A stretch of 64,000 bases of DNA from Bugula neritina. Lineage: Eukaryota > Bryozoa > Gymnolaemata > Cheilostomatida > Bugulidae. Position 1 is the first letter of the stretch. Every line of letters begins with the position of its first letter. The stretch covers positions 28,586,673 through 28,650,672 of the forward strand of contig OZ037766.1 in assembly GCA_964035545.1 (NCBI GenBank), given 5' to 3'. The notes under the pieces are model-generated. The model was not told the origin of the DNA. It ran no database searches and saw only the letters and a program-made list of their open reading frames with translations. Shown here in pieces: positions 6,301-27,304 of this stretch. A program made the position numbers and the translations under genes.

Positions 6301-6680
6301 TGGGATACGAAATTCTCTATATGATATGGTGCAAAATAAAATTTTGATTAATCAAGTAAAGTAACATTTTAAATTATTTAAGTATATCGATAATTTCTAA
6401 ACAAAATTAAATTAACAATAATAGTTGTTGACAAAGTATACTGCCATGAATAGCTATATAAAATAAATTGAATTATTTTTTCCCTGTTACCATAAGTACA
6501 GAGTTAGCATATGACAAACCTGCAGTTACCACATTTGAGAACTTTTGTTTTTTCCAAATATTTCTCAAGACAAGTTGAGCAGAAGATATGGGAACAAGGA
6601 AGTGTCTTGAGATTAACTGTGTGTTCAAAACAGTAGCCACAAATCTCAAGCTCAGCAGATATAATCGAACCAGACGCCAT
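3392..6680 (-). CDS. TRIM-like RING/B-box/coiled-coil protein
   Basis: Seven exons join in phase on the minus strand: 6520-6680, 6134-6281, 5401-5584, 4241-4437, 3780-3950, 3646-3682 and 3392-3516, giving 340 residues. Residues 14-53 are a C3HC4 RING finger (C14, C17, C29, H31, C34, C37, C50, C53), the E2-binding module of ubiquitin ligases. Exons 2-3 carry two B-box-like zinc modules (CDSC, YCHQC, FCAKH; then YCKTH, CEMC, CAQC). Exons 4-5 and 7 are charged heptad-rich coiled coil. No NHL, SPRY or other C-terminal domain follows; the frame stops a few bases from the broken end of the copia element, so the tail may have been lost. The exon 6 donor and exon 7 acceptor are weak and chosen for phase. 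RING and B-box identity is firm; the substrate is unknown. Confidence 0.85.
4585..4798 (-). repeat. tRNA-Thr-derived SINE, copy 1
   Basis: Read on the minus strand, a tRNA-like head (GCCGTGGTCTAGGGGTTAGA, then CTAGTAA in the anticodon-loop position and GGTCATGGGTTC in the T-arm) is followed by a tail shared with the copies near 19.3, 20.8 and 63.3 kb. That tail contains GCATCCAGT, ATAATTGCTCCTGTG, AATAAGTCC, and GGGATAGCGGC near its end. CTAGTAA would carry anticodon AGT, as in tRNA-Thr. It lies in the intron between exons 3 and 4 of the TRIM-like gene. Confidence 0.8.
5150..5262 (-). other. decayed tandem copy of a TRIM exon 3 splice-donor region
   Basis: This stretch resembles 5305-5425, which holds the 3' end of exon 3, its donor and the first part of the intron. 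Shared blocks include CTCCCCTACCTT-type sequence, ACTACAG and CATAGTAA. The copy keeps an AAG|GTAGGGG donor-like site at about 5239-5243 but has no exon body. By eye about 70 percent of positions agree. Confidence 0.55.
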
Positions 6681-8198
6681 TGACTGAAATCCAGAGAAAG
6701 AATGTTAACATTTATACGAACACTCAAGACTAGTTGCAACGTGACTATAAATTCTTTGCTATTCACATTGATGATAAAACTAAAAAGGATCATTGTCATA
6801 GTTAAACGAGTAAGACTATAAATTAATTAAATAACATTCGTATTGACTACAACTTCGACTTGTGAGTATCAGTGTGAAATTCATCTTGATTTAGATTGTC
6901 GAGTGAGATTCAAATTAGAAATCAGAAAAAAGTCATTGTGACTTCAGTAATTGCAAAAAGCTCAGTAGCAATAAAAAGAACTAGTACTAATAGTAATAGT
7001 GAGTAACCAGAGTCGGAGTGTGTATGACTGTATCTAATAAATTTACTTTGAAATTAAAAATTACTAAATTAAGCCAAACATTAGCAGTGTTTATTTTGAC
7101 TTCTAGAATTGTACATTTTATTAATTTATATAATAGCTAAGATAGTTAACCTGAACTTCTCCACAGCAAGCAAGGTGGCTGAAGTTATCGAAATAAAAAT
7201 ACAAGTTTATCTTCCAGTAGTAGAAATAAAACTGGACTTTTACAACAACGAAGGCAACACCCCTTTGACGGGAAATGCTTATCAATGAACTCTCGTGCAG
7301 CTTTGTGCAACAGTGATTATCATGGAGAAATGTTTTAATAGGAGGTTTTCGTTATCTCCCTAAAGTTTTCTAATTACATTGAGACTATAACTCCAAGTGC
7401 TTTATAACCTTGATGGCAGATGCAAAAAAGAATAAAATAAAAGATCATTTATATTTAAATTACAGTGCTGCATTAATTTATAATTTTTGTAGTCCCTGTG
7501 GTGGAATGGTTATGTAGTTGCTAACAAGTTGGAGGTCTCGCTTCGAACTCTAGTGACCATGGCCCACCCGTCCATGGGGCAAAATTTTTACAGATGGAAG
7601 CTATATCACCTTACTTTTTATGCAAAATTACCAAATAACTGGCCAGGCATGCATGTGTTGCACATGTTATGCTAGGGTTCTGGTTATATTTCTATAGTTG
7701 GATAATATTTAGAGAGGGTAGAGATGTATTCTAATTAGCCAGCTATATAATATTGCGTTTTATAGTTATGTACTAATGCAAAATTGAAAGATTGCAATCA
7801 TGTCATCAATATTTAATTACCTACATAATATTTTGGTGTACTTCCAAATGTAGAGTGTAGTAATATGCTGTAAGACTCTAAGGTCTAAGCTCTATTAAGA
7901 AATAATATAATTGCACAGTATCATGTTCCACATTCATACTTGTCAAATAGAATGCAAGCATTAAAAATATTAGTAGTAGAAGTCAACTAGCAATGTTCAA
8001 TGAACCAATGACTGCAAAGTTTCCTTGTTTGATTAGCCCAGATAAAACTAGAGTATAATGCGCGTCTAGGACAGACACTTTTACAAACGCAACGGTTTAG
8101 GTTTTGTATACAACCAGGAATTTTCTAAGCTGGAGTTGAGAGCTAACTCTTGCTACTGTTAATCGTTTGTAGTTCTTTGAGTAGCAGGCTGTAGGTGC
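6681..8198. other. divergent intergenic region, no gene seen
   Basis: Lies between the start codon of the TRIM-like gene on the minus strand and the TATA box of the Roco-caspase on the plus strand. I see no ORF or exon with recognisable coding content. It holds one tRNA-like element at 7492-7560 and otherwise AT-rich unique-looking DNA. It should contain the promoter and 5' UTR of the TRIM-like gene. Confidence 0.5.
7492..7560 (+). repeat. tRNA-like element (SINE head or tRNA pseudogene)
   Basis: Begins GTCCCTGTGGTGGAATGG, matching the tRNA-like elements at 13.7 and 42.9 kb, and has a decayed T-arm (CTTCGAACTCTAG). The anticodon arm does not fold convincingly, so it is not called a functional tRNA. 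A following 100-odd bases may be its tail but do not match the main SINE family here. Confidence 0.45.
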
Positions 8199-8999: not shown

Positions 9000-11900
9000 A
9001 TGGGTGGAATTATAAACCGTCAAGCTGATCCAGGTTAGTTTATGCAGTCACCTCAGTTATTAAATAGTGTCCACATTGCACAAAATAATGTTACAATCTC
9101 CAGCTACTAAATTTGTGAGCATAACTTCCGTTCTATTATATACATGTTTGTATATAATGGGTGGTGTGTGTTATCTGCTTGTTCCCTATGTGAAATGGGG
9201 CTAAAGTATAAGATTGAAGTTTACCCAAAAATATAATGTTTAATGTTATCCAATGCTTTCCCACTCACCCTATTGGCTTCAAAACCGCCATTGTCAATCA
9301 ATGATAAAAAATATGTTCACTAATTCGTGGGTGTAAGCTGCAACTTGACTATAGCTGATGCCCATTTATGAAGATAAGCATTTTTCTGACAAAGCAGTGT
9401 TTGTTGATTGGTTGAATCTTTAAAATAACCTTGAAATACCTGGCATTCTATTTACATAGAGGGAAAACTCTATACATATATAGCGTAGGGTGTTCCTATC
9501 AGAGCTTTATAGTGATAACACTTTGTATAAGCAGTATTTACCCTATAAACTATACACACTATAGCCTAACTAAGTTAATGGTTTATCAATTACAAACCAA
9601 TAAAAGTATATACATAGATGTATGTCTAAAATCTAAATATAGTAAGGATTTGTTATTGCATTAAATTTCAGCTGAGACAAAATTATGACTATGGATCGGG
9701 CATCAAAAGCAAGCAATGTGCTTTCCTAACTATTTTCTACTTTATGATTTTCAAATTTGTAGATAATGTCTGAGATATTCATTAATTAAGTGCTTTGAAG
9801 CTACTGAAAGTAAGAATTCATTGTTAAATCAAGGGCTTAGCTCTCATATTGTATACTTAGCAATCAAGCTATTATTACTAGAAAGCTTGACTATAGCATA
9901 CATACAGATTTACACCACTATTTCCTGTAAACTCCAAACCCCTATTGCCTGCATTTTACTTAAAACTTAACCATATTTTTAAAATAGAAATATTGCATCA
10001 CGCTCCTTTAGACAGTGGATCTTAATGTTGATTACTGAAATCTAAAATAGTTACTAGAAAATTATTGCTCTTGAAACTCTTGCAGCTAGAACTACTGTTG
10101 AGTGTATTCTTAACTTGGGCTTAGCTTTGTATATATGTATATATCGTATATAAAATAATTGTTACCGGTTAAACAAACTTGTTAGTTGGTGTTTATTTGA
10201 TGTGCTGCTATTACTAAAAAACTTTATCAGCTATGCAGTGTACAATTATTATGAAAACCATATTCAAATTGCTTTTACTCTTACTTATAATTTCAAAAGT
10301 TATATTTTAAGATAAAACCATTTTTGCATGACTTGTAGTTATTTCTTGTTCTTTCTCAATAACTAAACTATTATACATACCTATTACCTATATATTTGAA
10401 AGAAATTTATCTGTTTTAATAAAGTGATTTTCCTTTCAGAAAATTACACATCAAACATTAAGCTAGGTGATGTGTTAGGAACTACGAAAAGGTGTAAACA
10501 TAGAGATGTCTTAAAAGAGTATTGGGGTCAGCAGGTCAGCGAGATGCTAGTGGATGGAAGGCTTCCAGCTGCACTGTTTATGTGGTGGCATGAATCTCTG
10601 AGAATACTTCGTCTCAGAAACTTGAGCTCCACTGCAGACTTGTCAAGGTAAATTCAGTTTGATAACTTTTCAAGGTAAACTTAGTGTAATACCTTATATA
10701 TTTTTAAAATATTCTATAGATTGAGATTTTCTGCGCAGTAGTAACAGGTGCCTGTATTTGTACAGATGTTGAAAAACTTCAATACAGAAAAGTTTACTGA
10801 AAGTAATTTTATTTTGCTGATAGCATATATAAGCTTGATATTGCATATGCACATATAGATATTATTATGTAGATAACTGCAGAGCTATATGCAGTTTTAT
10901 TTCTTTGGGCATATGAATTTAAATGATTCGGCAATGCTATTCTAGCTGATAAATTGCAACCCAGCAATACTATCCTTATAAATTGCTACTGCAAGCTAGC
11001 AATGCTATCCTTATAAATTGCTACTGTAAATAAAACTGTATAAGAATAATTGTAAAAATCTTCTATTGTATATTTAATACAGCATTATATACAACTTCAT
11101 GTTTCAGCTGTTAAGGTATTATGGCAAACTTGTATTGTTTTAAATTATATTTTAACTGTTTAAGCTTAGCAATTAGAAAGTTATAGTAAATGTAGGATTA
11201 CTCTAACATATTTGTAATAGCTAAAGTGATGCGAGTTAATGTTTGGGAATTAAAATTGAATTTTTCTTTTAATGTTATTTGAAAAACTCGTATAGTTGAT
11301 TCATTTCGTAATGCTATTATTGTGTTAGTATTGTATTCTGCCATTTCATTTATTGCTAATCCATACTGGGAATATTAATATAATAATAGGTTGTTTACAT
11401 AACAAAAGTAAGAATTTATTTATTTATAGCTTGTCAAGACTAGTCAACCTGACTATCCTCAATTTGAATGACAACAACTTTAGCAAAGGATTCCCAGAAG
11501 TAGTTACATCACTTCCTTCTCTTAGAGCTCTGTGGATAGAAAATAGCAGACTAACCCAACTTTCACCAAGGTGAGCTGTATAAAATACACCTGAGTCGTG
11601 TCATTGTTTCTATTTTTTCTATAAAACTTACAATTAGTGATGTTTCATGGGGTTTCTGGTAGAAATGGCACATGTAAAATGGCACAGGTGAAGATGACAC
11701 AGGTAAAAATGGCACAGGTAAAAATGACACAAGTAAGACTGGCATAGGTAACAATAGCACAAGTAAAAATGGCACAAATGACAGAGTAGATAAAAATAGC
11801 ACATTTTCAATATTAGGATTTGAGATGGTGGTAGGGGTTTAGAATGGGGCTTAGCTTTGGAGATTGGGGTTTGAGTTTGGAGTTGGATTTAAAGGTTTGG

Positions 11901-14900
11901 GAAAATTTAACATTAATGTGCCATTCTTACCAACTTTTCCATTTGTGCCATTCTCACCTGTGCCATTTTTACCTGTGCCATTATTAGTTTCATAAATTAG
12001 GTATTTGTCTTTGAAACATAACTACCATTACTCTGCATAGCATAACTAACTTGAACTAGTTCTTATTGGTAGTGGTGACATATCAGCTATTTCTAGAAGT
12101 ACTGCTGATTGTTATAAAGTTTGAAGTAATTAAATTTTATTGCTCTTTTTTCAAAAATGTTGCTCATTTTTTAAAATTTAATGCTGAAACTTAATTGGTA
12201 ATGATTTTCCAAACGGCAAGCATAAATTTATTTCTTAGTCTGAATCAAATTTTTAGATCTTACACTTCGAGTTAGATAAATTAATAGGTGTTTCACTCAA
12301 AATATAAAAAATGATTAACAATAAAAGTTTTTTGTTACTTCAAATGTTCAAGTTAAAAACACTAAAATAGAAACACAGACCAGTGAGTGAAAAACAATTA
12401 ATTTTGTTTGGGTATAATGTGTAGCTCTTAAAATTAAACACTTTAAATGGAAAAGTTTCATTGGCTCAAGATGTTCATGCATTTCTGCTTTTTTATTTGT
12501 AGGCTATGCAAGCTGAAGAATCTTGAGCGTCTGTATTTGGATAATAACAATTTCAGTTCCGGACTTTCAGAAGCAGTTGCCTCCCTTGTATATCTTGAAG
12601 AATTATGGCTGAGAAACTGTAGGCTAACCTCTCTACCATCAAGGTTTGTGCTAAAAATGTTTTTGCAAATAATTGTGAAAAAAAGAGTTTTGTTTATTTT
12701 TTTCAAATAACTTTGAAGCAGTTTGACCTAATTATCTTGGAGATAGAAAGCAAAGAGCCAATTTGTGGTTAGCATAGCAAATATTATTTGATAACTACTT
12801 GTACCGTACCCAACTCTAATAGATCAGATGTTAGAAACTCAGACCATAAGAGTTATCTTGTCACCAGTTATAGTCTTGTGAGGCTGAATGCTGAAAGATT
12901 TTAACAAATCATGTATTTAGACTGATATAAACAGGGTATAGTTGATACTTAGATGATAGCTAGACTATACTTTAGTGATGTTTAGATAATACCTGGATAC
13001 CTAGGTGATACCTGGATAGTGCCTAGGCAATGTCTGATGCTACCTAGGGAATATTGTCTAGGTCATACCCATGCAGGTGATATTATCTAGGTCATACCCA
13101 TGCAGGTGATATTATCTAGGTCATACCCATGCAGGTGATATTATCTAGGTCATACCCATGCAGGTGATATTATCTAGGTCATACCCATGCAGGTGATATT
13201 ATCTAGGTCATACCCATGCAGGTGATATTATCTAGGTCATACCCATGCAGGTGATATTATCTAGGTCATACCCATGCAGGTGATATTATCTAGGTCATAC
13301 TCAGGTCATAATATCTAGGTCATACTCGAGTCATAGTATCTAGGTCATACTCAGGTCTTAGTATCTAGGTCACACTCAGATGATATTATTTAGGTCATAC
13401 TCAGGTCATAATATCTAGGTCATACTCAAGTCATGATATTTAGGTTACACTCAAGTGATGTCTAAGTAATGTTCCAGGGATATTTCTGTCTGTTTCAGCT
13501 TTGTTAGGTTGAGTCGTCTAAAGACCCTCGACTTGAGTGACAACAACTTCAGTTCTGGTCTGCCAGAGGTGCTCACGTCACTCACTGCACTTACAGATCT
13601 GTACTTAGAGAATTGCAAACTAACTGCTCTGCCTTTGAGGTAAGGGGATAAAGAGTAAATAAATTTTAATGTTAGAATTGTGAAACAAGTTGTAAAATAA
13701 TTGCCCCCACTGGGAATCGAACTCGAGCCCTCTGGCTTGCAAGCAAGTGTGCTACCATTACACCACGAAGGCCAAATGTGAAATGGTGCTCCATGATTTT
13801 GTATGCAAATATAAGTTTTTAAAAGTTCTACCGACATTACGCGTGAACTACTGAGTATTTGATTTTCAATATTGTAGTTAAATTATTGTAACGTCTACAT
13901 TATTTATTATTTTACCAAATAGTTGAGTTTTACTGTAGTTGAATTGCAATAATATATCAATAATATATACATTATGCATTATTCTACTACAGTATGTACA
14001 ACATGCAAATGTTGGATAGTCTCAGCCTACAAAACAACAACTTCAGCTCAGGTTTTCCAGAAATCATCACTTTCCTCAAGTTCTTAACAAGGCTAAACAT
14101 GCAGAGCTGTAGCTTGTGGGCTTTACCGCCTTTGTAAGTATTATCTAGAACTTTATATACTGATTCACTGACTACACTAGGTACAGAGGCTACAGCATTG
14201 CGATTAACAGATACAATCATAAACATAATAATTATTATCATAATGTTGTAGATCTTGAACTGAATAAATATGTTATTATTTTAACATAAAGTATTGCAAC
14301 TACAAATAGAACACATTTAATTTAGCTTTCCACCATTAAACTATGTGCTCAATATAAAGAGTTTTACAGTGTACCGATTACAATTTGTGGTACATCAGTT
14401 TTTAAAAATAATTATTAGGTTGTATGAAAATATACTATACTGTAATATACTATGCTGCATCATATACTACATTGTGTGGAATACAATGTATTGTAGTGTG
14501 CTGCATTGCATCGTGCTTCATGCTATTATATTGTATTATATCACATTATTGTGTTATATTTTGTTCTGTTGTATCATATGTCTTGATATAATCTTATAAT
14601 ATATTATAATGTATAAAATATTGATTACCTACATTGGCTATATAACAGAGTTGCAGTGCAATATAGCTTCTATAGTCTCAAATACAATATAATATCTTTG
14701 TAGACTGGCAAATCTTCAAAGACTTAGGATTCTAGAGTTGAATGGTAATGACTTTATCATTGGGCTGCCTCAAGTCGTCACATCATTTGAATCACTCATA
14801 TGGCTTAAGATAGGGAACTGCAGACTAACTTCCCTTCCTCCCAAGTAAGAGACCTCTTCTATATGTTATATAAGACTGTTACAATGTAATGTAATACCCC

Positions 14901-17900
14901 TACCTCAACTTGTATAATGTATTGACTGGAGAATATTGGTGAAATTATTTTACTTGTGATTAGTATATAGGCCTATTATGATTTTTTTCTTACAAACATA
15001 GTATGAATTACCATATGTTTCGGGTATACTAATCACTGCTAATCAACTGCACATTCATTCACTTTTACAACTTGCATAAGTGTAAGTGTCCTACAAGGAT
15101 CCTAGACATTGTACATTGTGACACTAGGCACTATGCAGTATGCATTGTGATAATTGATAGCTGTTTTTCCTAGTAATAAATAAAAGTAACACAACTCCAA
15201 AACAAAAAAATTAAAAGCAAGCCCTTACTTCAACGGCTGAAAAATTATCAAAATATTATATGACAAGTCGTAGAATTTTTAGCTCATCAGTGTTCAGCAA
15301 ATTATGACAATAGTCTTTAGTAAATTTAATATCTGGTGGCAAAAGACAAATTTTTTTATATAAAGATTAAAAAATATATAAGTTGTGCTAAAACTGGATG
15401 AGATTTTAATATTACAGACTTGTATAATTATTTAGCAGCTTAATATAATTAATTATTCTTTATTTGCTAACAAATTATTATCAATTTCTATTTTTTAGCA
15501 TTGAAAAGCTACAGCAGCTTAAGCACTTGGATTTGGCTGAAAATAATTTAACAACACTCCCTGAAAACGTGTGCAAGCTGGAAAAATTGGAGACATTGAA
15601 TTTGGAGAAAAATCCCCTTTTGGTGTCTTTGAATTTGCAAATGTTGAAGCTGAGTAACTTGAAAAAGCTAGATGTGCGAGAATGTGCAGCTTTGTCAAAT
15701 CCACCTAAAGAGATCTGCAAAGAAGGTTTGCCAGCCATCTGGCAGTTCTACAGAGATTTGGCTAAAAGCGATGGCCAAAATCAACCTCTGGTGACGGTTG
15801 CAATAATTGGAGCTGCTTTTGCTGGGAAAACAAGTCTAATCAGAACTTTACAAAATCCTGAAAAGGTTCGAGTTCTGACTGACCGAAGTCCTGATGCTGT
15901 TGTTGATGAAACTACGAAGGTGTTTAATATAGAAGAAGTAGAAGTAAACAACACAATTCTCAGACTAGTTGATATGGGTGGACAGGAAGTGTATCACATA
16001 ACTTATCAACTTACATTGAAACAAAACTGCATTCCAATTGTAGTTGTGAATATGGAGCATTACCGAAAGCAAGCTACAGCTTCTGGGCACAGAGAGGCTA
16101 CAAGAAGACTGGCATTTGATTGGTTGGCGCATTTGTACGTCGCGAATCCCGCCCTTGGTCCTGCTAAGCTTGTTTTGACCCACAAAGACAAATTTTCATC
16201 AGATGAGTTTACTCAGTTGAAAGAGCAGTTTATCATTACTGTGAATACAATTCGCAACGAAATTGTAAAAGAAGATGCAATTTGTGAAACAAAGTTAAAA
16301 AGAATTCAGCATTTCATTGACAGCGAAAGTGTTTTTGCTGCTCGAGATGTATACGAAATCGGAAAGAATGATAGCTATGCTGTGTATGATAAGTTAATAC
16401 TCAGCATATTTTATTCTTGTCAAAAGTTTACCAGAGTTCTGCCCAACATCTGGCTAGAGATTGAGGAAGTGGTCTCAACGCTCCCCTCTGTGTATAGTAC
16501 AGAAGATCAGATTATTTCAGAGCTGGATAAAGCTGGAAAACCAATGTTGCCAAGTGAATTACACACAATCCTAACATACATGCATGATAGTGGCAGCCTT
16601 CTAAAATATGAAGATATTGAAATTCTCAGGCCTTACATTTTTCATAAAATCTCGGAGGTTACGAAGTTGCTGACAGTTCTATACCACCATGATGACAAAG
16701 TTTGGCAAACAAGAAAACAAATGTTTCAACTCATAGCTTTACCTGGCGAAGAGGCACTAGAGAAAGAGCACTTTGAAAGTTTGATCTGGTCATACCAAAC
16801 AACTGGAGTTATGGACCAACAGCTTTTCTGCTATTTGATAAAAACAGAAACTGGGTTTAAAAGTGACGTGGATGCTCAGTTAGCTTTATCTCTCCTTCAA
16901 TCTTTCCGTCTGCTGTATGGACCACTAACTATAAATTCCAGACCATGCCTCATTGTTCCGTCTTTTCATTCTGAGTACCATCAGTCTAACTTTCAAATCA
17001 AGCAAGACATCACGTTGCAACATGAAATACTCTGCAAAGGCCTTCCAGTACCACTTTACGTTTATCACCAGATGACCGTGGACGTACTGAAAATGTTTTC
17101 AGAGAACACAAATTCTGTCTCCATAAAGAAAAACGGAGTCAAACTGTTTCACGATGGCTCGTTCCTCAATTTTGTCCATGACGCTTTTTCAAACAGAATT
17201 ATCATCCAAGTGGCATCAGCTGTGAGGAAAACTACGCATTCGTGGAGTAATCTGATTGATATTGTCAAGACTATTTCTGCCAATGTGGTTGAGGCATGGC
17301 CAGCTAGCAGACTGATGCACATTTCCAGCTGCTCCCATTGCCTTCTGATCAACAATCCTCATCCGGCAAGACAGATTTCTCCGGGCTGGTGCAAACAAAA
17401 TGCTTTCTCGGAAAAAGCTGTTTACCAGAAGTTCTACAGCGTGTTCACTGTCTTGTGTAATGGAGACCAGATACCAAGTCTTTTTGTCAATCCTTGTAAG
17501 TTATAGTTTCAAATTGAGGCTAATATTAGTTTGCTAAAGTTTTTAATATGTGTGGGTAAACCCAAAACATCAGATTCTATGACCATTCAAAATTTCCCAT
17601 TTTTAGAGCTACATTATTCAAAAAGTTTTTTATTTGTTACGTACACATAAAGGGGACTGAGATTAGCATTAAATCTTAAATGTTAGAAGTGTGTAAGCAT
17701 TATATTGGCGCTATTCCAACATGAATGACATGTAGGCTGCTGAATCAGCTATTGATCTTTTAGTGAAGTTTATTAGTTTTAAGGAAATATACTTTTGTTT
17801 TTTGCAGGCTTATTTTTAGATGACCATGAGATGAATCACCTCAAAAAAGTTGTGACCAAGTTGAAGAACAAATCAACTCAAAGCAGCCAAAGGCTTGCAG

Positions 17901-20900
17901 GTAAAGACAATTCTTCTATTAAACTGTCATTAATATTGCACATCTGTTGTACATAAAGTTTATTTTTAGTCTACAACACAACGCTTTTTAGCCCTATTTG
18001 GCTATTCCACACACAAGGTATTATAATATCCTATCTGCAGATTTTACAGAAGTCTTTGCTAACTAACTTAAATAAGCTGCTAGTAAATATGGCATTATGA
18101 AATAGGGTCTCAAATAAAAGTTTAACTTGTCCCTGAAAGTAGAATTATAATTTGCGCACATTTGCTTGCTTGCACACGCACGCACGCACACACAACAAAT
18201 AAGTAATGCATATTTGAATAATCATGAAATATCTTCCCATATAAAATGTAGGTGAAGAAGTTGAAGAGGTCCATACAAAGACAGCTGGCACTTCCGTCAG
18301 CTCATCTGCCAAACAACGTAAAGGAAAACAAAAGTCAAGTCATCTGGGCACGAGTATATAACTTAATTATACAGTTGCTAAATTCAAACTACCATGAAGT
18401 TTAGTGTGGTGTATTATATAAGCAGTATTTATAGTTGTAATTGTCCTACTTTGACGTTTATACTGTTTTGTATAGTAACGAAGTATATGAACCAAAACTA
18501 ACCACAGTTTTATCCAAGTAGTGGCATTCCATGTATTTTATAGAAAATAGGTATAATACTGATGTAAGGTTACCTGCTCCCTTTTGATTTTACAAGTAAA
18601 TACTAATTATCCAATTTATGATGTATTCTATAGCTAACTAGCTGCAAGATCACATATTATTGCTACTATATTGTATGGCTTGTGTTATTCTTAGAAAACT
18701 ATATGCTTTAGAAACATATGCATGAATTGGTATATATGGTATATGGTATATGGTATGTGCGTGTGCGTGTGCGTGTGCGTGTGCGTGTGCGTGTGCGTGT
18801 GCGTGTGCGTGTGGGTGTGCGTGTGCGTGTGCGTGTGCGTGTGCGTGTGCGTGTGCGTGTGCGTGTGTGTGTGATGGCTAATATGTTAAGTGCATTAGTG
18901 ACTTTTTCGTATCATCTTATACAGCTTAGTCATATATTATTTTGGTAGAAAAACGTGAAGATACTCTATTCACTACATTGGAAGTTCCACGAGAGAAACT
19001 GACTTTAGAGCCGGCAGAAAAAGAGGAAGTGGATCCACTGTCTGATGATGATGACTACATGGAGCCGGCTGATGACCCCGAAGGTCACGATGTGCTCTTG
19101 AGACTTCCTGTAATACAAACCAGGAAAGAGCGCATTAAAAAACTTTTTTTCAACAACGAGAAGGTATATTAAATGTATTAAAAACCCAATAAGCTTTATC
19201 GAGTTTATTGTGCTATCCCTGCAAAACCCCTTAATGGAAAGGGTCTTTTTTAAAACAGGCTAAAACTTCACTGATGTGACACAGGAGCAATTATGACTGG
19301 ATGCTTTTCTTAACACCACCGCTGGTGTTTGAGCTCAACCATTGATTTGGTGATTACTAGGCCAACACTCTAACCATTACACCAAACTTGCCTTTTTTAA
19401 ATTTAATATTTGAATATAAACAATATGCAATGAACACTTAGTCAACATTCTTAAAACTTGATTAATACCAATTTTAGGTGTTTCTAATGACAAAGACCAG
19501 AGGGAGAGCATTGATAATCAACAATCAAAAGTTTGCTCACTCTCCAAAAAGACATGGCTCGAAAGCGGATGTTAAAAACTTGAAGTACATGCTCAAAGAA
19601 TTGAAGTTTGTCGTATCGTTATTTGAGAATCTTTCAGCAAAGGTACAAGTCATAATATTTTACTGTAAATATATTTAGAAACTATCATTTTTACAACAAC
19701 TATAAAATATTATAAAGATTTGGTTTTAAAATTACTTAAATTTGAATTCACAGTTATATAGCCCTAAATTTCAACATCTATGGGATGCTGTTTGCCTGCT
19801 ATAGTGCTTAAATCAAATATACCTGCTGAGCCCGTTTGCTACACGAACTCCATGCTTATGTATCTCTGAACTATGTTATACTTTTTCTTTTTTACGTTTT
19901 TCTTAGTTAGATTAGTATTAGAGAAGATGGGGGTCTTCACCAAGCTTAAGTATGCATTGCTGTTGCTGCTTGTTTCATGTTATCAATATGCGTTTTGGTG
20001 TCCCTAGCATGGTCAAGGTGTTCCAGGGCTTTGCATTCAAATAGTACTGCATCTGTATTTTACTACAGTTGTTTATGCCAACTTGATCAGGCTATTGCTT
20101 GATCAGTTTTGTTTGTGTACTATTGCAATTCTCATTTTTATGGAGCAGACAATTTCTTATTACATCATGGTTTTTATATAGAGTAAGTTTTAATAACTGG
20201 GAAATAGCATTTTGTACCCTCCTTAATATTAGTCTATGCTTGATTATTAATAGCGGTAACTTTGATAGTCAGCTGCTTTTTAAAAAAGGAACACCTCAGA
20301 GTTGATGGCCGCTTTTATAGACAAGTTTATTCTGTCACCCTATCGGCCATTGCAATTTCTTTAGTTGAATAGCAAACATTTTAGAAAGATAATCTGAGCT
20401 ATATATTTCATTCGTTTGTTTTTTAAACTATTTTATCGTTATATACTTTTGAACAGCTTTATCCCAGATTTATCATTAAGTTGTTTATTTTGCTTTAGAC
20501 ACAATATTTTAAGTTGATGCTTTATTAGAAACTGTGTTGTAGCAATTAATTTAAAATGTTTGATTTAAGAATGACATCTTATACACAAAGATATCAATAC
20601 CTATAAACGTTTTGCAAGTTAGTGATGGGTGCTGTTTTGAAGCATTGAATAAAAATTGTTACTTTTCCATAACTATCAACAGTTTATAAAAGTTTTATAA
20701 CATTTGTGGTCTTTGGCTAACATGCTGACCTATTAAACACAAAGTTAGTGGTTCGAGTCCTAGCACTAGTGGTAGTGTTAGGAAAACATCTAGTCAAAAT
20801 TGCTTCTGTGCTACATATGAATAAGTCCTTAGCCCAATTTAACAAAAACCTTTTTAATCAGTGGTTTTCACAGAGATAGCAACTATAAACTTGCATGAGT

Positions 20901-23118
20901 TTATAAGACTGTTACAAATTTGCAAGTCATTTTATAATTTCAGGACATGCTGCATGTCATCAGGAACGAGGTTGCCGACAAACGTCATGCAGACTACGGA
21001 ACATTCTGGCTCTTTCTCTGCTCCCATGGAACTGACTCTAACCACATCTATGGTTCCGATGATGTTCTGGTGAACATGAGAGATGTGTACGATTTACTTA
21101 CGGCTTGTAACTTTCCTGAAATGGCTGGTAAGCCAAAGATGGTTGTAATACAGGCTTGCAGTGGAGGTAAGCTTGCTGTTTTATACAAACAGAAGGAAAT
21201 AATTTGGATAAATTCAAATTCAGTTATGCAAAAGACATATTAAGATTTTTTTTTTTAAATAAAATAAAACAACTGTGAAATTTTTTTTCAAAGTGGTTTT
21301 AGTCTGTTAATCTAGGTTCAAATATAATATTTTTGTCATAAATATGTTTTAGACAGAATAGATGGTGGTGGTAAAGGAATCTACACATTGAGTAAAGAGG
21401 AGAGTTTAAGTGTATCTGAGAAAGGTTCACAGACGGTTGTTAGAGCTCTTACTATGCAACGTGATGGTAAAATGGAGAAAAAAATGGAGGGACTGAACTA
21501 CGATGATCTTCTTACTCTCAAGTCCAGCTTTGAGTGTGAGTATTTTGTGTTGCAGCTTTACTTTACAATGTGTAGCCATTTATATGCTAATTATATAATG
21601 ATTGTTCACCCACTTCTATCTGCACCTGTAATATATGCTGTGAGTCATTGTTACATATATGATATACACCATATACACTCTGAAATTTGAAGCTCAAGTG
21701 TGTTAATTAGTATTTAAATGAAGATATTATATTTTGAACTATAGCTGGACTAAATTCATTTACATGTATTACAAGAATGTCAAACATATTAGATGCACAT
21801 AAAAACATACACTGTTAACAGATGGTTATAAATATGTTTTTTTTAAACAATCATGCTGCAGTTGTATGCATTATAAAGCAAGTCTAATAGAAATGAGGTG
21901 ATTAAGTTTGTTTTAAAACTTACTGAGAAAAACTCCAGTTTGATTGTCTGATTTGTTGAACCATTTGATAAAGTTAAAGTTGAGCATATTTTTGGTAATT
22001 TTAAGAAATTATTACTTTTATGTGCAGGTTTAAGTTTAATTATAGGCATAACACACCAATAGGCAATTTTTTATTTAAATGATATATTGTGTAATTAAAT
22101 TAAATTTTAAAAATATAACATGCAAGAGAAATCTTCATATAAAATCAAAAGGCTATACCCTCTAAATTGCAGTTTTATTTTAATTTTTTCAAAGGGTATT
22201 GCAATCCTACTCTGTCTCAGAAAACCAAAAATTTTCTAAGAATTATTAAAATAAATTTTGTTGCTTGAAATTAACAGTATGTCATTGTTAATATGAATAT
22301 GGCTTTTTGAATAGATATCAAGTTATGTCTTAAACTTCCCCTTTTCCGTTGATCTGACAAAATATTATTAAAGTTTTGACCTCCCTTTTCATATGACAAA
22401 GTGTTAGCTACGTAAGGAGTAAAACAGTTTAGCATGTGGTAATATAAATGGATTTTATTTCAGCATTTGTATCCAGGAGACACCCAGTCTATGGCTCTCT
22501 GATGATACGGTGTCTGGTCAGGACAGTGTGTCTTCACGCCTGTCATCGGGATATGTACGAGATCTTCAGAATCGTAAGAATCTAGCATATTCTTTCTAAT
22601 TAATGTTAGTGCTGGGCCAGTACCAAGGAACATCTTTCTTAAAATCAGCTCAGCACTGTGATACAGAATTCATACTATTTTTAATTATACTGCATAATAG
22701 TTCATATAGGGTTGTAAGTACATAGAAACTTTTGAACTATTTCCTTTGGCATCTTTGGGAGATATGAGAGCAGACACCTAAAATATTGTAAATATGCAAA
22801 ACACATGATTGTTTAGCAAAAATGAAGAATATAGCAAAATTAAATCATCAAAATAAAATTTTGCAAAGCAATAAGTCATATTTTGATTGGATGTTTTATG
22901 GAAACTAATAAGCCATCTACCTTTTAGCTTGCTAAGATTTCTTTTCTATCATTAACTAATGATGATCTGTGTAGGTACAGCAAAGAGTGAGAAAATTCTG
23001 TATAAGAAGAGACCTTGAGTCTCGTCAGTTGCCAGTGGTTACAGATACGCTCAGTTATATGAGAAAGCTTTATCTCTTCCCTGGATACAATGGATCTCGG
23101 CTAGAAACCAAAAAGTGA
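9000..23118 (+). CDS. LRR-Roc-COR-caspase fusion protein (Roco-caspase)
   Basis: Sixteen coding exons join without a phase conflict into 1380 residues: 9000-9033, 10440-10647, 11430-11570, 12503-12643, 13499-13639, 13993-14133, 14704-14844, 15499-17495, 17808-17900, 18252-18317, 18949-19163, 19478-19642, 20944-21166, 21353-21535, 22464-22573, 22975-23118. Residues about 70-400 are leucine-rich repeats. Roc GTPase spans about 410-600, with P-loop GAAFAGKTS (420-428), switch II DMGGQ (474-478) and THKD (543-546). COR follows to about 980. A basic then acidic linker (about 981-1105) precedes a caspase: RGRALIINN, SHG with catalytic His1189, QACSGG with Cys1233, p10 block VSRRHPVYGS with the expected S1 arginine, and the end motif RKLYLFPG. 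All key GTPase and protease residues are present. Roco proteins are GTP-regulated dimers and caspases are Asp-specific proteases; a sensor-protease role in cell death is inference. I do not recall this fusion as a standard family. Confidence 0.9.
11651..11990. repeat. fold-back minisatellite in Roco-caspase intron 3
   Basis: The left arm (about 11651-11805) is a degenerate tandem array of GGCACAGGTAAAAAT-type units. The right arm (about 11918-11985) is the reverse complement of the same unit (GTGCCATTTTTACCTGTGCC). About 110 bases of GT-rich DNA lie between. Single strands could form a long hairpin. It could be a non-autonomous DNA transposon with subterminal repeats or an inverted minisatellite. 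Confidence 0.65.
13048..13450. repeat. 29-bp minisatellite in Roco-caspase intron 4
   Basis: The unit CTAGGTCATACCCATGCAGG plus TGATATTAT repeats about eight times at 13048-13279 with almost no differences between copies. From 13280 to 13450 it passes into shorter degenerate relatives built from CTAGGTCATACTCAGGTCAT. Near-identity of the first block suggests recent expansion, so copy number is probably polymorphic. Confidence 0.9.
13703..13772 (-). repeat. tRNA-like element in Roco-caspase intron 5
   Basis: On the minus strand a 70-base segment has a 7-bp acceptor-like stem (GCCTTCG with TGGGGGC), a D-arm (GTGTAATGGTAGCAC) and TTGCAAG in the anticodon-loop position. The anticodon and T stems are mispaired, so this is probably a SINE head or pseudogene. 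It matches the element at 42887-42956 closely in the D-arm and anticodon arm. Confidence 0.5.
14430..14610. repeat. AT-rich simple repeat in Roco-caspase intron 6
   Basis: Irregular runs of ATACTATACTGTAATATACT-type sequence with TATTGTATTATAT. They give spurious long ORFs of Tyr/Ile/Leu codons. No coding signal. Confidence 0.6.
18756..18872. repeat. (GTGCGT)n microsatellite in Roco-caspase intron 10
   Basis: About 19 copies of a hexamer GTGCGT with few interruptions lie between exons 10 and 11. Alternating purine-pyrimidine sequence of this kind can adopt Z-DNA. The 76-codon ORF over it is an artefact of the repeat. Confidence 0.95.
19192..19393 (-). repeat. tRNA-Thr-derived SINE, copy 2
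   Basis: Minus strand reads a degenerate head (GGTGTAATGGTTAGAG, CCTAGTAA) and then the family tail (AAAGCATCCAGTCATAATTG, CTCCTGTGTCACATC, CCTTTCCATTAAGGGG, GGGATAGC). It lies in intron 11 of the Roco-caspase. The head is more diverged than in the copy at 63.3 kb, so this is an older insertion. Confidence 0.8.
20703..20902 (+). repeat. tRNA-Thr-derived SINE, copy 3
   Basis: Plus strand carries a decayed head (TAGTGGTTCGAGTCCTAGCA at the T-arm position) followed by the family tail (AACATCTAGTCAAAATTGC, ATGAATAAGTCCTTAGCCC, CAGAGATAGCAACTATAAAC). It lies in intron 12 of the Roco-caspase, opposite in orientation to copy 2. Confidence 0.75.
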
Positions 23119-24326: not shown

Positions 24327-27304
24327 ATGGGAAGTAAGCGAAAATACTTTTATCACAGCCAAAGAAAGAAAAAGAAGCTTATTTTAAACTTGCAAGGAAA
24401 GAAAGCCAAAGCTCAGCCCACACAGGAAAATGGTTTTGAAGGGGCATCAAGCACCTCCCCTAATGCGGTTAGTAAAGATCCTAAATTGTGTTTTAAATAT
24501 GGCTACTGTTGAGACTTTTCAATGAGAAGCTGTAGTTTAATGGTTAAAGCACTGACCTAGTAGATACTAGATCTTGTGTTCAAATCTTGGCAGGGCTATT
24601 GGTAATGTCAATAAGGGTAGTTATTATTACTCCAGTACCACAAAACACTCTCAATTCATGTTGCCTTAACAGTGAGAGATCTTAGTCTTAGCCCTTGCTA
24701 TTAGGGGCTCTCACAAGGGTAGATAGTTTAAACTAACATCCCTCAGGAAAGATGTACATATCTATACGTAAAATTATTTGCAAGGATAGTGGATGTTCGT
24801 TAGTCTCTAATGATATTTTTGGTGATTATCAAATGGTTGAATTACTTTTATAGCTAGGTTCATTAGTTCTGCACAAAGCAATTGCTCGGCTGCAGCATAT
24901 ATATTAACAATGGGCAGCTGACTTTATCCTAGTATAGCAGTAATGTGTAGCGCAGCAACATCCTAGCCAATAATTTTTAGTAGGTAATTATGCATCTAAA
25001 TTTTACATTTTTGTAAATATATCAATGAAATTAAAGCAACATGAAGAAGAGCTGGTAACCTTATACCTCCTTGCTAAGTGTTTCGTCTAAACAGCTCAAA
25101 ATTGTTTATTTTAATACAAATTATTGCTTTAAATGGCACTCAATAAAATATATTTAAGAAGCACTCTTGTAAGGTTAGTTATATCAATAAAAAGAAATAT
25201 ATTAGTAATTAAAGCTGTTTCATGGAATATAGCTTTAAACTTGTAAATGGTAATAACAGCACACCACTGGGTGTAACTTGTTTGGGTGAATTTAAATATC
25301 ATAATATGAGACATTTTCTTGGGCAAGAGTAATCATGAAACTCTTTTGAAAACAGAAAGTGAAACCTCTAGGAACTTTTATTGAAATAAAAAATTAAGAG
25401 ATTGAATAAAATTCCATGCTCATTGCAGAATAGAATTTAAATTTAAGCAAAGCTTTAATTGGTTTATGATTGTGGGTAATAAAATCCTGAATTAATAGGC
25501 ATGGCATCACCATTTTGTATTAAAATTTTTTACTGAATTGTTATAGGCTGATGCTGATGGGAATCAACTGGATAACAACTCTACAGGCACAAAAGAGTCA
25601 GTAATACTGACAAATGCGGCCAAAAATTCAAGTTTTCGAAAGATTAGTCTATATCGTTCTTGTACAGCTGGTATCACAAACACTGCTAGTGTTACTACTG
25701 CAGATATTAAAACAAGCCCAGATGAAGTTGAGGGTAATGATCAGTGTAGTGGATATAGAGTAGTGAGTTTGAAGTTTCTATCTGACCTGGTATCTGCTGC
25801 AGCTTGTCCTTCTTGTGGATATCAGAGGCTCGAATTTGCTGAGTCAGCAAAAAAGGGTCAGGCTTCCAAATTTTCGGTGACTTGTTCTGAGTGTTTAGAG
25901 TCTACATTTTCTGACTTTTCTTCTTCTTATGTTTCAAAAACAAAATGCCGATCACATGATATAAACTATAGATTTGTATTCAGCTGTAAGGCCAATGGGT
26001 TGGGGTATAAACAAGCAAGAAACTTCCTCTGTGACCTTAATACCTCCCCTCCCATTTCTTACAGTGGTTTCTCCACGGCCCTCAACTCTCTTTATGAGGC
26101 CAGTAACACTGCCATCAGTGAGCACTTTGCTCAGATTAGAAGCATCGTTAAGCAACAGTACATAAGAATGGGACAAGCTAGTTGTGATGCAGATGTTGTG
26201 AACATTTGTGTTAGCTATGATGGTACATGGCAGAAACGAGGTCATTCCTCTCATATTGGTGTAGGAGCTGCTATAGATTTGCTAACTGGTTATGTGCTTG
26301 ACTTTGAGATATTGTCAAACTTTTGTGCTGAATGTGAAAAAGGACCACGGAAAGATGATGCAAAATATGTTGAGTTTAGGAAAAAGCATGAAGGAAACTG
26401 TCACAAGAACTTCCATGGATCGAGTGGTATGATGGAGGTGGAGGCAGCTAAGCGAATCTGGGAGCGCTCTGTAACACAAGAGCTTCATTACATAACAATG
26501 TTGAGTGACGGGGATGCAAAGGCATATGAAGCAGTTTCAAAGTTGAACTTTTATGGTGATAAGAAGGTACTCAAAGAAGAGTGTGTCAATCATGTTTCTA
26601 AGCGATTGGGCGCTGCATTAGAAAAGCTTGTGGCAGACAGCAGAAAGCAGTCCATTAAACTTGGAGGCAAAAATGGATTAAACAGAGTATGCATTCAAAG
26701 GTTACAGACTTACTATATGAATGCTATTAAAAAGTACACAGGAAACTTAGAAGAAATGAAGAGAGAGATCATGGCTGCTCCGTATCACGTAACCTCAACA
26801 GAAGAACAAGCACAGCACCAGTTCTGCCCAGCAAATAGCTGGTGCAGCTACAAGAACTCAGATAATAAGGAGCCAGTCTTAAATAAACTTCCTCCATATT
26901 TTTTAGAATACCTACTTCCAGTGTATGAGAAGTTGTCCGAAACAAAGTTGCTTGGGCGCTGTCGTAGAGGGGCAACACAAAATGCAAACGAAAGTTTTAA
27001 CGGTGAAATATGGCGGAGATGCTCTAAAACAACATGGGTTGGCCCAAAATCTGTAAAAGTAAGTGCGAATTTTGCTGCCATTGTGTTTAACAGCGGCACA
27101 GAAGAGCTAATAAAAGTGCAACGAATCTTTGGTTTAGTAGACGGTGAAAATGTGTTGAGAAATGCTAAAAAAATGGACTCTACAAGAATGGCTCAAAAAA
27201 GAAAGTGTCCCATTGCTAGAAGAATAAGGAAGCAAAAGCAGATTAAAGAAAGGCAGAGACAAATTCAAAAAGAAGGTGTGGGATATGCTGCTGGCAAATT
27301 TTGA
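24327..27304 (+). CDS. Mutator-like (MULE) transposase, two exons, intact
   Basis: Exons 24327-24467 and 25547-27304 join in phase 0 to give 632 residues. The N-terminus is basic (MGSKRKYF then RKKKK), fitting a nuclear and DNA-binding tail. Two CxxC pairs (CPSC, CSEC) suggest a zinc module at about residues 130-165. The RNase H-like catalytic core shows SYDGTW (Asp272), LSDGD (Asp368/370) and NESFNGEIW (Glu529), a plausible DDE triad. CAEC and the later NCHKNF and NHVSKR blocks are typical of the invertebrate Mutator-like transposase family. There is no frameshift or internal stop. The ORF alone can be opened at a GTG at 25763, but the in-frame upstream exon makes ATG 24327 the likely start. 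A cut-and-paste DNA transposase by family; whether it is active or domesticated is not decided by sequence. Confidence 0.85.
24525..24745 (+). repeat. tRNA-derived SINE variant inside the transposase intron
   Basis: A tRNA-like head (GTAGTTTAATGGTTAAAGCA, CCTAGTAG, GTTCAAATC) is followed by a tail that shares only general features with the main family (CTTAGCCC, GGGGCTCTCACAAGGGTAG). It is probably a related but distinct subfamily. It lies wholly inside the intron at 24468-25546. Confidence 0.55.

Follow-up and report, generated by a model that had tools for sequence, protein, structure and literature searches.

Roco-caspase genes in the bryozoan Bugula neritina: a large family predicted to join leucine-rich repeats, a Roc GTPase, COR and a caspase in one chain

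The window, by which we mean the whole stretch of 64,000 nucleotides of Bugula neritina DNA that was analysed, carries on its forward strand a Roco-caspase gene (9000-23118) whose 16 exons, once spliced, form one uninterrupted frame of 1380 codons that closes with TGA (Table 1). All 15 introns are of the GT-AG type and the phases match throughout, bearing out a first-pass annotation that had described 16 exons with unbroken phase. From N- to C-terminus, the encoded protein has leucine-rich repeats (LRRs), a Roc GTPase, a COR domain, an acidic linker and a C-terminal caspase. The motifs reported by the same annotation are all located in the spliced protein (GAAFAGKTS at residue 420, DMGGQ at 474, THKD at 543, SHG, SRRHP at 1300 and KLYLFPG at 1364), except that its QACSGG is QACSGD after splicing, because that reading runs on into the intron. 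The gene region contains no N bases. At the level of the genomic sequence, a single 16-exon LRR-Roc-COR-caspase gene is thereby confirmed, which would be transcribed as one unit. Paralog alignment is unconvincing over the N-terminal region encoded by exons 1-2, where one paralog was tried. Intron 4 holds a 29-bp minisatellite (13.6 copies, 13051-13425) and intron 10 a TGTGCG array (19.7 copies, 18756-18873). Outside the gene lie a Mutator-like transposase frame on the forward strand 2.4 kb downstream (25547-27304; Pfam PF20700, 211 bits) and, upstream on the opposite strand, a RING-finger frame (6504-6704).

Table 1 Exons of the Roco-caspase gene and a nearby signal, in window positions
Feature	Position	Strand	Content
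Exons 1-2	9000-9033, 10440-10647	+	N-terminal region, begins MGGIINR, mostly ahead of the repeats
Exons 3-7	11430-11570, 12503-12643, 13499-13639, 13993-14133, 14704-14844	+	Five LRR cassette exons
Exon 8	15499-17495	+	Final LRRs, Roc GTPase and COR, all in one exon
Exons 9-11	17808-17900, 18252-18317, 18949-19163	+	Linker from COR to caspase
Exons 12-13	19478-19642, 20944-21166	+	Caspase large-subunit region (Arg1114, His1189, Gln1231, Cys1233)
Exon 14	21353-21535	+	Caspase inter-subunit region
Exons 15-16	22464-22573, 22975-23118	+	Caspase small-subunit region: SRRHP (Arg1302), KLYLFPG, stop
AATAAA	23289..23294	+	Possible polyadenylation signal, 171 bases past the stop

The sensor part of the protein is recognised by Pfam as LRRs and has a modular design. 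Exons 3-7 are 141 bp each, all in intron phase 2 and with two repeats per exon, and the one paralog examined has two LRR exons of 144 bp built in the same way. Over the LRR end of exon 8 (70 or 71 codons), dN/dS ranges from 0.48 to 1.08 and lies above the values for Roc (0.11-0.25) and COR (0.15-0.33) in all six paralog pairs compared, with small counts and no significance test applied. A second comparison, with a relative that is 95% identical (P0002), gives differences at 8 of 68 LRR residues vs 26 of 587 elsewhere (Fisher p 0.018), leaving out two terminal differences where P0002 reads into an intron. The LRRs evolve faster than the GTPase, linker and protease, which show purifying selection.

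The switch part comprises Roc (approximately residues 412-620) and COR (approximately 630-930), both extents being estimates. The Pfam Roc model scores 26.9 bits on the whole protein, just below its cut-off of 27, and 28.2 bits on exon 8 alone; the G1, G3 and G4 motifs (GAAFAGKTS, DMGGQ and THKD) are present. For COR there is no Pfam match in the whole protein, nor in exon 8 even at E 1: the COR of the window gene is too diverged for Pfam. Among 34 aligned exon-8 members including the window gene, however, the same permissive threshold of E 1 yields COR-A in 31, COR-B in 9 and Roc in 33. A profile built from these 34 members matches two bacterial Rocos and P0001, a Roco without a caspase, with 99.9% probability (E 4.1e-34) over 525 columns that span the final LRRs, Roc and COR. 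It is because of the COR matches in alignment members and this profile match that we call the window protein a Roco. There is no Pfam match at E 0.001 to a NACHT or NB-ARC ATPase in the window protein. The P-loop is intact in 16/16 paralogs, and GTP binding and nucleotide-dependent dimerisation are predicted for the window protein. In the available part of a study on the bacterial Roco CtRoco, that protein is mostly a monomer with GTP and a dimer without nucleotide, dimerising largely via the C-terminal half of COR (PMC6337361).

At the C-terminus, Pfam Peptidase_C14 covers residues 1114-1358 (141 bits, E 5.6e-41, profile positions 1-227 of 233). Among solved structures, CED-3 is the best match to the caspase (E 6.6e-28), and the alignment extends over both subunit parts. 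Among the 60 of 189 structure matches listed, all are named CED-3, caspase or interleukin-1-beta convertase, which we take to be animal proteins; one of them is by name an engineered caspase-2. These matches, together with the intron-rich gene, speak against horizontal transfer of a whole bacterial LRR-Roc-COR-caspase gene. That explanation draws on the identical architecture published for bacteria (PMC8195603, in the part of the paper available), and we consider it highly improbable.

By alignment, the window caspase keeps His1189 (SHG) and Cys1233 (QAC), presumably the catalytic pair, as well as Arg1114, Gln1231 and Arg1302, which we take to form the S1 (Asp) pocket; in the same alignment it departs from CED-3 in having QACSG for QACRG and SRR for SWR. 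Since the catalytic residues of one paralog (L072) are not resolved, 15 of 16 paralogs could be scored, and the small subunit is resolved in few paralogs only. The catalytic His is kept in 15/15 and the Cys in 13/15, the exceptions being L064 and L070. Tyr takes the place of the Cys in L064, a possible pseudo-protease. The S1-pocket Gln position is more variable: 8 of the resolved paralogs have Glu there, 3 retain Gln, 3 have Val or Leu and 1 has His; with the Gln kept in just 3/15, cleavage after Asp is uncertain for most paralogs. Three Glu-type members (L061, L066 and L067) have low dN/dS over the exon with this position and so are not decaying, and Glu-type paralogs may have an altered caspase specificity. 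As c-FLIP binds other caspases and does not cut, the caspase half could in principle be a scaffold or decoy, i.e. a non-cutting regulator that binds other caspases. Replacement of the S1-pocket Gln in 12/15 resolved paralogs and loss of the catalytic Cys in 2/15 would fit such a role; the retention of all five residues named above in the window gene, and of the Cys in most paralogs, does not, and we judge a decoy function to be unlikely.

The window gene belongs to a large family. We find at least 94 Roco loci in the genome, of which 87 are followed on the same strand by a caspase no more than 9 kb away and 2 have no listed caspase row; the other 5 were outside the caspase check. The total is made up of 92 loci, the union of the exon-8, long-frame Roc and COR lists, plus two COR rows without a caspase; the 92 are spread over eight contigs and include the 87 for which a caspase is shown. 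An exon-8 protein search, in which 67 of 174 candidates were scored, gave 67 copies, all full-length or nearly so, namely the window exon and 66 others at 43-49% identity; two of the 67 have one internal stop. A listed caspase row follows 55/67 of these copies at 0.7-7.1 kb downstream. Roc rows in open frames of at least 460 codons (39 of 150 listed) give the same picture: 32/39 have a listed caspase row downstream at a distance of 9 kb or less, and all seven without such a row carry the start of a caspase by spliced alignment (in L072 its first part only). Finally, for 21/23 COR-A rows a caspase row lies on the same strand, 2.0-3.4 kb further downstream. Neither in these three sets is any caspase row found upstream, nor is any on the opposite strand. 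One of the two COR rows without a caspase row is LRRK2-like. The probability of a caspase match arising by chance is at most 0.3% per locus and, because the same-strand downstream caspase is family-wide, chance neighbourhood is very unlikely. The caspase list comprises 150 of 176 matches, with rows standing for exons rather than genes, and candidates were scored in part, so the family counts are lower bounds. A very long open frame in one exon-8 copy was set aside, as it runs through unread bases.

Viewed from the caspase side, a listed Roco lies no more than 12 kb upstream of 98/150 listed rows but not of the other 52, which means either that plain caspase genes exist too or that the Roco partners of these rows were unscored. 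Other caspase architectures may exist in the genome, given these 52 rows and the locus L068. Small contigs such as C58, C90 and C99 have strong Roc-model matches with several internal stops, perhaps Ras- or Rab-like genes and possibly from a cobiont. An exon-by-exon profile search of the same genome found 1 row for NACHT, 4 for CARD and 11 for Death; NLRs may nonetheless be present, but the contrast between a single NACHT row and at least 87 Roco-caspase loci is large.

We also applied a spliced aligner, which reproduces the window model, to 16 paralogs; the locus L068, where a caspase row has no listed Roc and the spliced alignment is weak (score 455), was left out of the paralog counts. The alignments extend from COR across the linker and into the caspase large subunit. 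Of the resulting models, 15/16 are without a stop, and the stop in L066 falls where the linker is poorly aligned. Averaged over 12 paralogs and the NCBI protein P0029, identity to the window protein is 0.50 for Roc, 0.39 and 0.33 for the two COR halves, 0.20-0.25 for the linker, 0.48 around a conserved RIKKLFFNNEK stretch and 0.46 for the large subunit. Distances in Roc-COR and in the caspase large subunit are correlated (Mantel r 0.78, p 0.0001, n=13 including the window gene), a pattern consistent with a single fusion in an ancestor and later duplication. L064 does not follow it: its Roc-COR groups with L060 and its caspase with that of the window gene (support 0.96), as though the caspase end had been exchanged.

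P0029 (EB796_002463) is a paralog from Bugula neritina, 35% identical over exon 8, whose single automated NCBI gene model has Roc and C14 above the Pfam cut-off and COR-A and COR-B below it. The model is without the first caspase exon and its start may contain an intron, so that it supports the joining of the two halves and is not equal to a transcript. Its UniRef name is caspase family p20 domain-containing protein, i.e. the Roco-caspase arrangement already sits in databases. An assembly join, which the first-pass annotation had raised as a way for its proposal to fail, is not borne out, and both it and a chance neighbourhood are rejected in view of the region without N, the arrangement repeated in paralogs and the joined NCBI model. 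The proposal itself, one gene fusing a Roco to a caspase, is supported by the single frame and by the recurrence of the arrangement across paralogs.

In the window gene, the linker between COR and caspase contains a serine followed by an acidic run (PLSDDDDY at residue 1064), and RIKKLFFNNEK sits just ahead of the caspase core. A conserved autocleavage site in the linker was considered and rejected, the candidate Asp varying among the aligned rows. In pairs of L061, L066 and L067, dN/dS is 0.11-0.29 for the linker exon, compared with 0.19-0.23 for exon 8 and 0.10-0.23 and 0.07-0.32 for two caspase exons. Such conservation and selection are not expected of a non-coding gap between two genes, and the fusion therefore looks coding. 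If a Roco and a caspase gene were instead co-duplicated neighbours that are separately expressed, one might point to retention of intron 8, which would stop the protein a few residues past exon 8 (frame 15449-17506), to two AATAAA between 17496 and 20944, and to a Met that, in the window gene as in 12/12 aligned paralogs, immediately precedes the caspase core. For a Met in this position, however, ordinary caspases offer parallels. Upstream of the shared Met, the serine-acidic run occupies the same place in 14/14 aligned rows, the window gene included, and this, the purifying selection on the linker exon in three paralogs, the fit of the exon phases throughout and the NCBI model that joins both halves of P0029 make two separate genes very unlikely.

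Among 1137 candidates, a protein search that used the caspase part of the full chain as query gave no hit at E <=0.01, and one with residues 400-1380 returned only P0001 (7999 candidates scored). Both missed P0029, which does carry the fusion, and are hence poor evidence that the fusion is absent elsewhere. Viral contigs yielded no relatives of the Roc-COR exon, and prokaryote genomes gave 5 distant loci; the open reading frames of three of these (L074, L076 and L077) have no caspase motif by eye, and L077 looks like an unrelated GTPase. Five further proteins (P0030 to P0034) are Roc-COR frames of 523-687 aa at 26-35% identity, several of which end at or near a Pro-Cys like that of the exon-8 donor, so that related genes may exist in other animals.

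How does this arrangement relate to known systems? In apoptosomes and NLR inflammasomes (APAF1, CED-4 and NLRs), a sensor with a nucleotide switch gathers caspases; the switch is a STAND ATPase, and the caspase is recruited through a CARD or PYD. The Bugula neritina Roco-caspase differs from these in having a GTPase switch and a covalent caspase. A close parallel is bacterial: the available part of a 2021 eLife paper describes LRR-AP-GTPase(Roc)-COR proteins with variable C-terminal effectors, including caspase, and proposes a counter-invader role for them (PMC8195603). As there, the order is LRR, Roc, COR and C-terminal effector with several copies per genome; unlike the example given in that part, one bacterium with 11 paralogs and a different effector in each, no fewer than 87 loci of Bugula neritina share one kind of effector, and their genes are rich in introns. 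Animal Rocos, as covered by the accessible portion of another paper, comprise LRRK1/2, DAPK1, MASL1 and the ROCOs of Trichoplax, the latter with CARD and death domains among others; they share the Roc-COR core with Roco-caspases, and several the LRRs, whereas that portion describes none of them as carrying a caspase domain (PMC4104024). Brown algae provide a further parallel, i.e. a large ROCO family with shuffled 72-bp LRR exons, all in phase 2, proposed to be immune receptors; the phase is the same in Bugula neritina, with exons of 141/144 bp that hold two repeats. The algal proteins are mostly LRR-ROC-COR only, three adding peptidase IPR009003, three DUF900 and none a caspase, and the word "caspase" is absent from the text of that paper as available to us (PMC11378527).

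The LRR-Roc-COR-caspase architecture itself is thus not new. The first-pass annotation had called the fusion unfamiliar, which does not hold for bacteria, where it is described (PMC8195603, same part), and does hold for animals, as we could not find the animal version or its expansion described among the literature matches listed. Judged by title and abstract, with preprints and most subscription papers outside the scope, none of these matches reports an animal Roco-caspase, and none of those on bryozoan caspase or immune expansion describes one.

Initiator caspases are switched on by proximity. The probable reading of the family, in our view, is a diversified set of single-chain sensor-switch-proteases, with an LRR sensor, a Roc-COR switch and a dimer-activated caspase, forming an intracellular germline receptor repertoire. 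A ligand would be sensed by the LRRs, the Roc-COR pair would be a nucleotide-controlled dimerisation device and the C-terminal caspase would be the output. In the untriggered state, a GTP-bound monomer would keep the caspases apart; binding of a ligand by the LRRs, or loss or hydrolysis of GTP, would then favour the COR dimer, in which two caspase domains could meet on their linkers, activate by proximity and cut themselves. Activated caspases would lead to cell death or inflammation. The sensor-switch-protease in one chain envisaged by the first-pass annotation is supported by our analysis; its trigger, GTP-controlled COR dimerisation, changes direction, since CtRoco is a monomer with GTP and a dimer without nucleotide (PMC6337361, as available), making the GTP-bound Roco-caspase more likely the off state.

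With at least 87 loci diversifying the LRRs, the family would constitute a germline repertoire of intracellular receptors. Bryozoan colonies also remodel their zooids, and the proteins might rather be developmental or housekeeping regulators of apoptosis, comparable to the Roco kinase DAPK. According to the accessible parts of two papers, DAP kinase is a Roco that works in apoptosis (PMC8195603) and LRRK2 has a role in trafficking (PMC4104024). The presence of 87 or more loci, the faster evolution of the LRRs and the cassette design of the LRR exons, however, have the look of a recognition repertoire, and we regard a developmental role as rather unlikely. The immune reading suggests that a Roco-caspase is a one-molecule version of a death-triggering immune receptor, and perhaps Roco-caspases do the work of NLRs. 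More tentatively, it is possible that the bryozoan lineage swapped NLRs for Roco-caspases, as scores of single-chain, GTP-gated apoptosomes with LRR cassettes that can be reshuffled via equal-phase exons, caspase ends that are sometimes swapped (L064) and, in many members, an altered specificity (Glu for the S1 Gln).

Animals are mostly known to link sensors and caspases through death-fold adaptors. If our reading is true, the chain from sensor to caspase would be covalent throughout, with a Roco GTPase as its gate, and would resemble bacterial conflict systems in this. The family would then offer a simple system, with a protease read-out, for studying the control of Roco dimerisation by LRRs and nucleotide, which is a central issue for LRRK2, and would suggest one way in which an animal where a single NACHT row is detectable could sense threats inside its cells.
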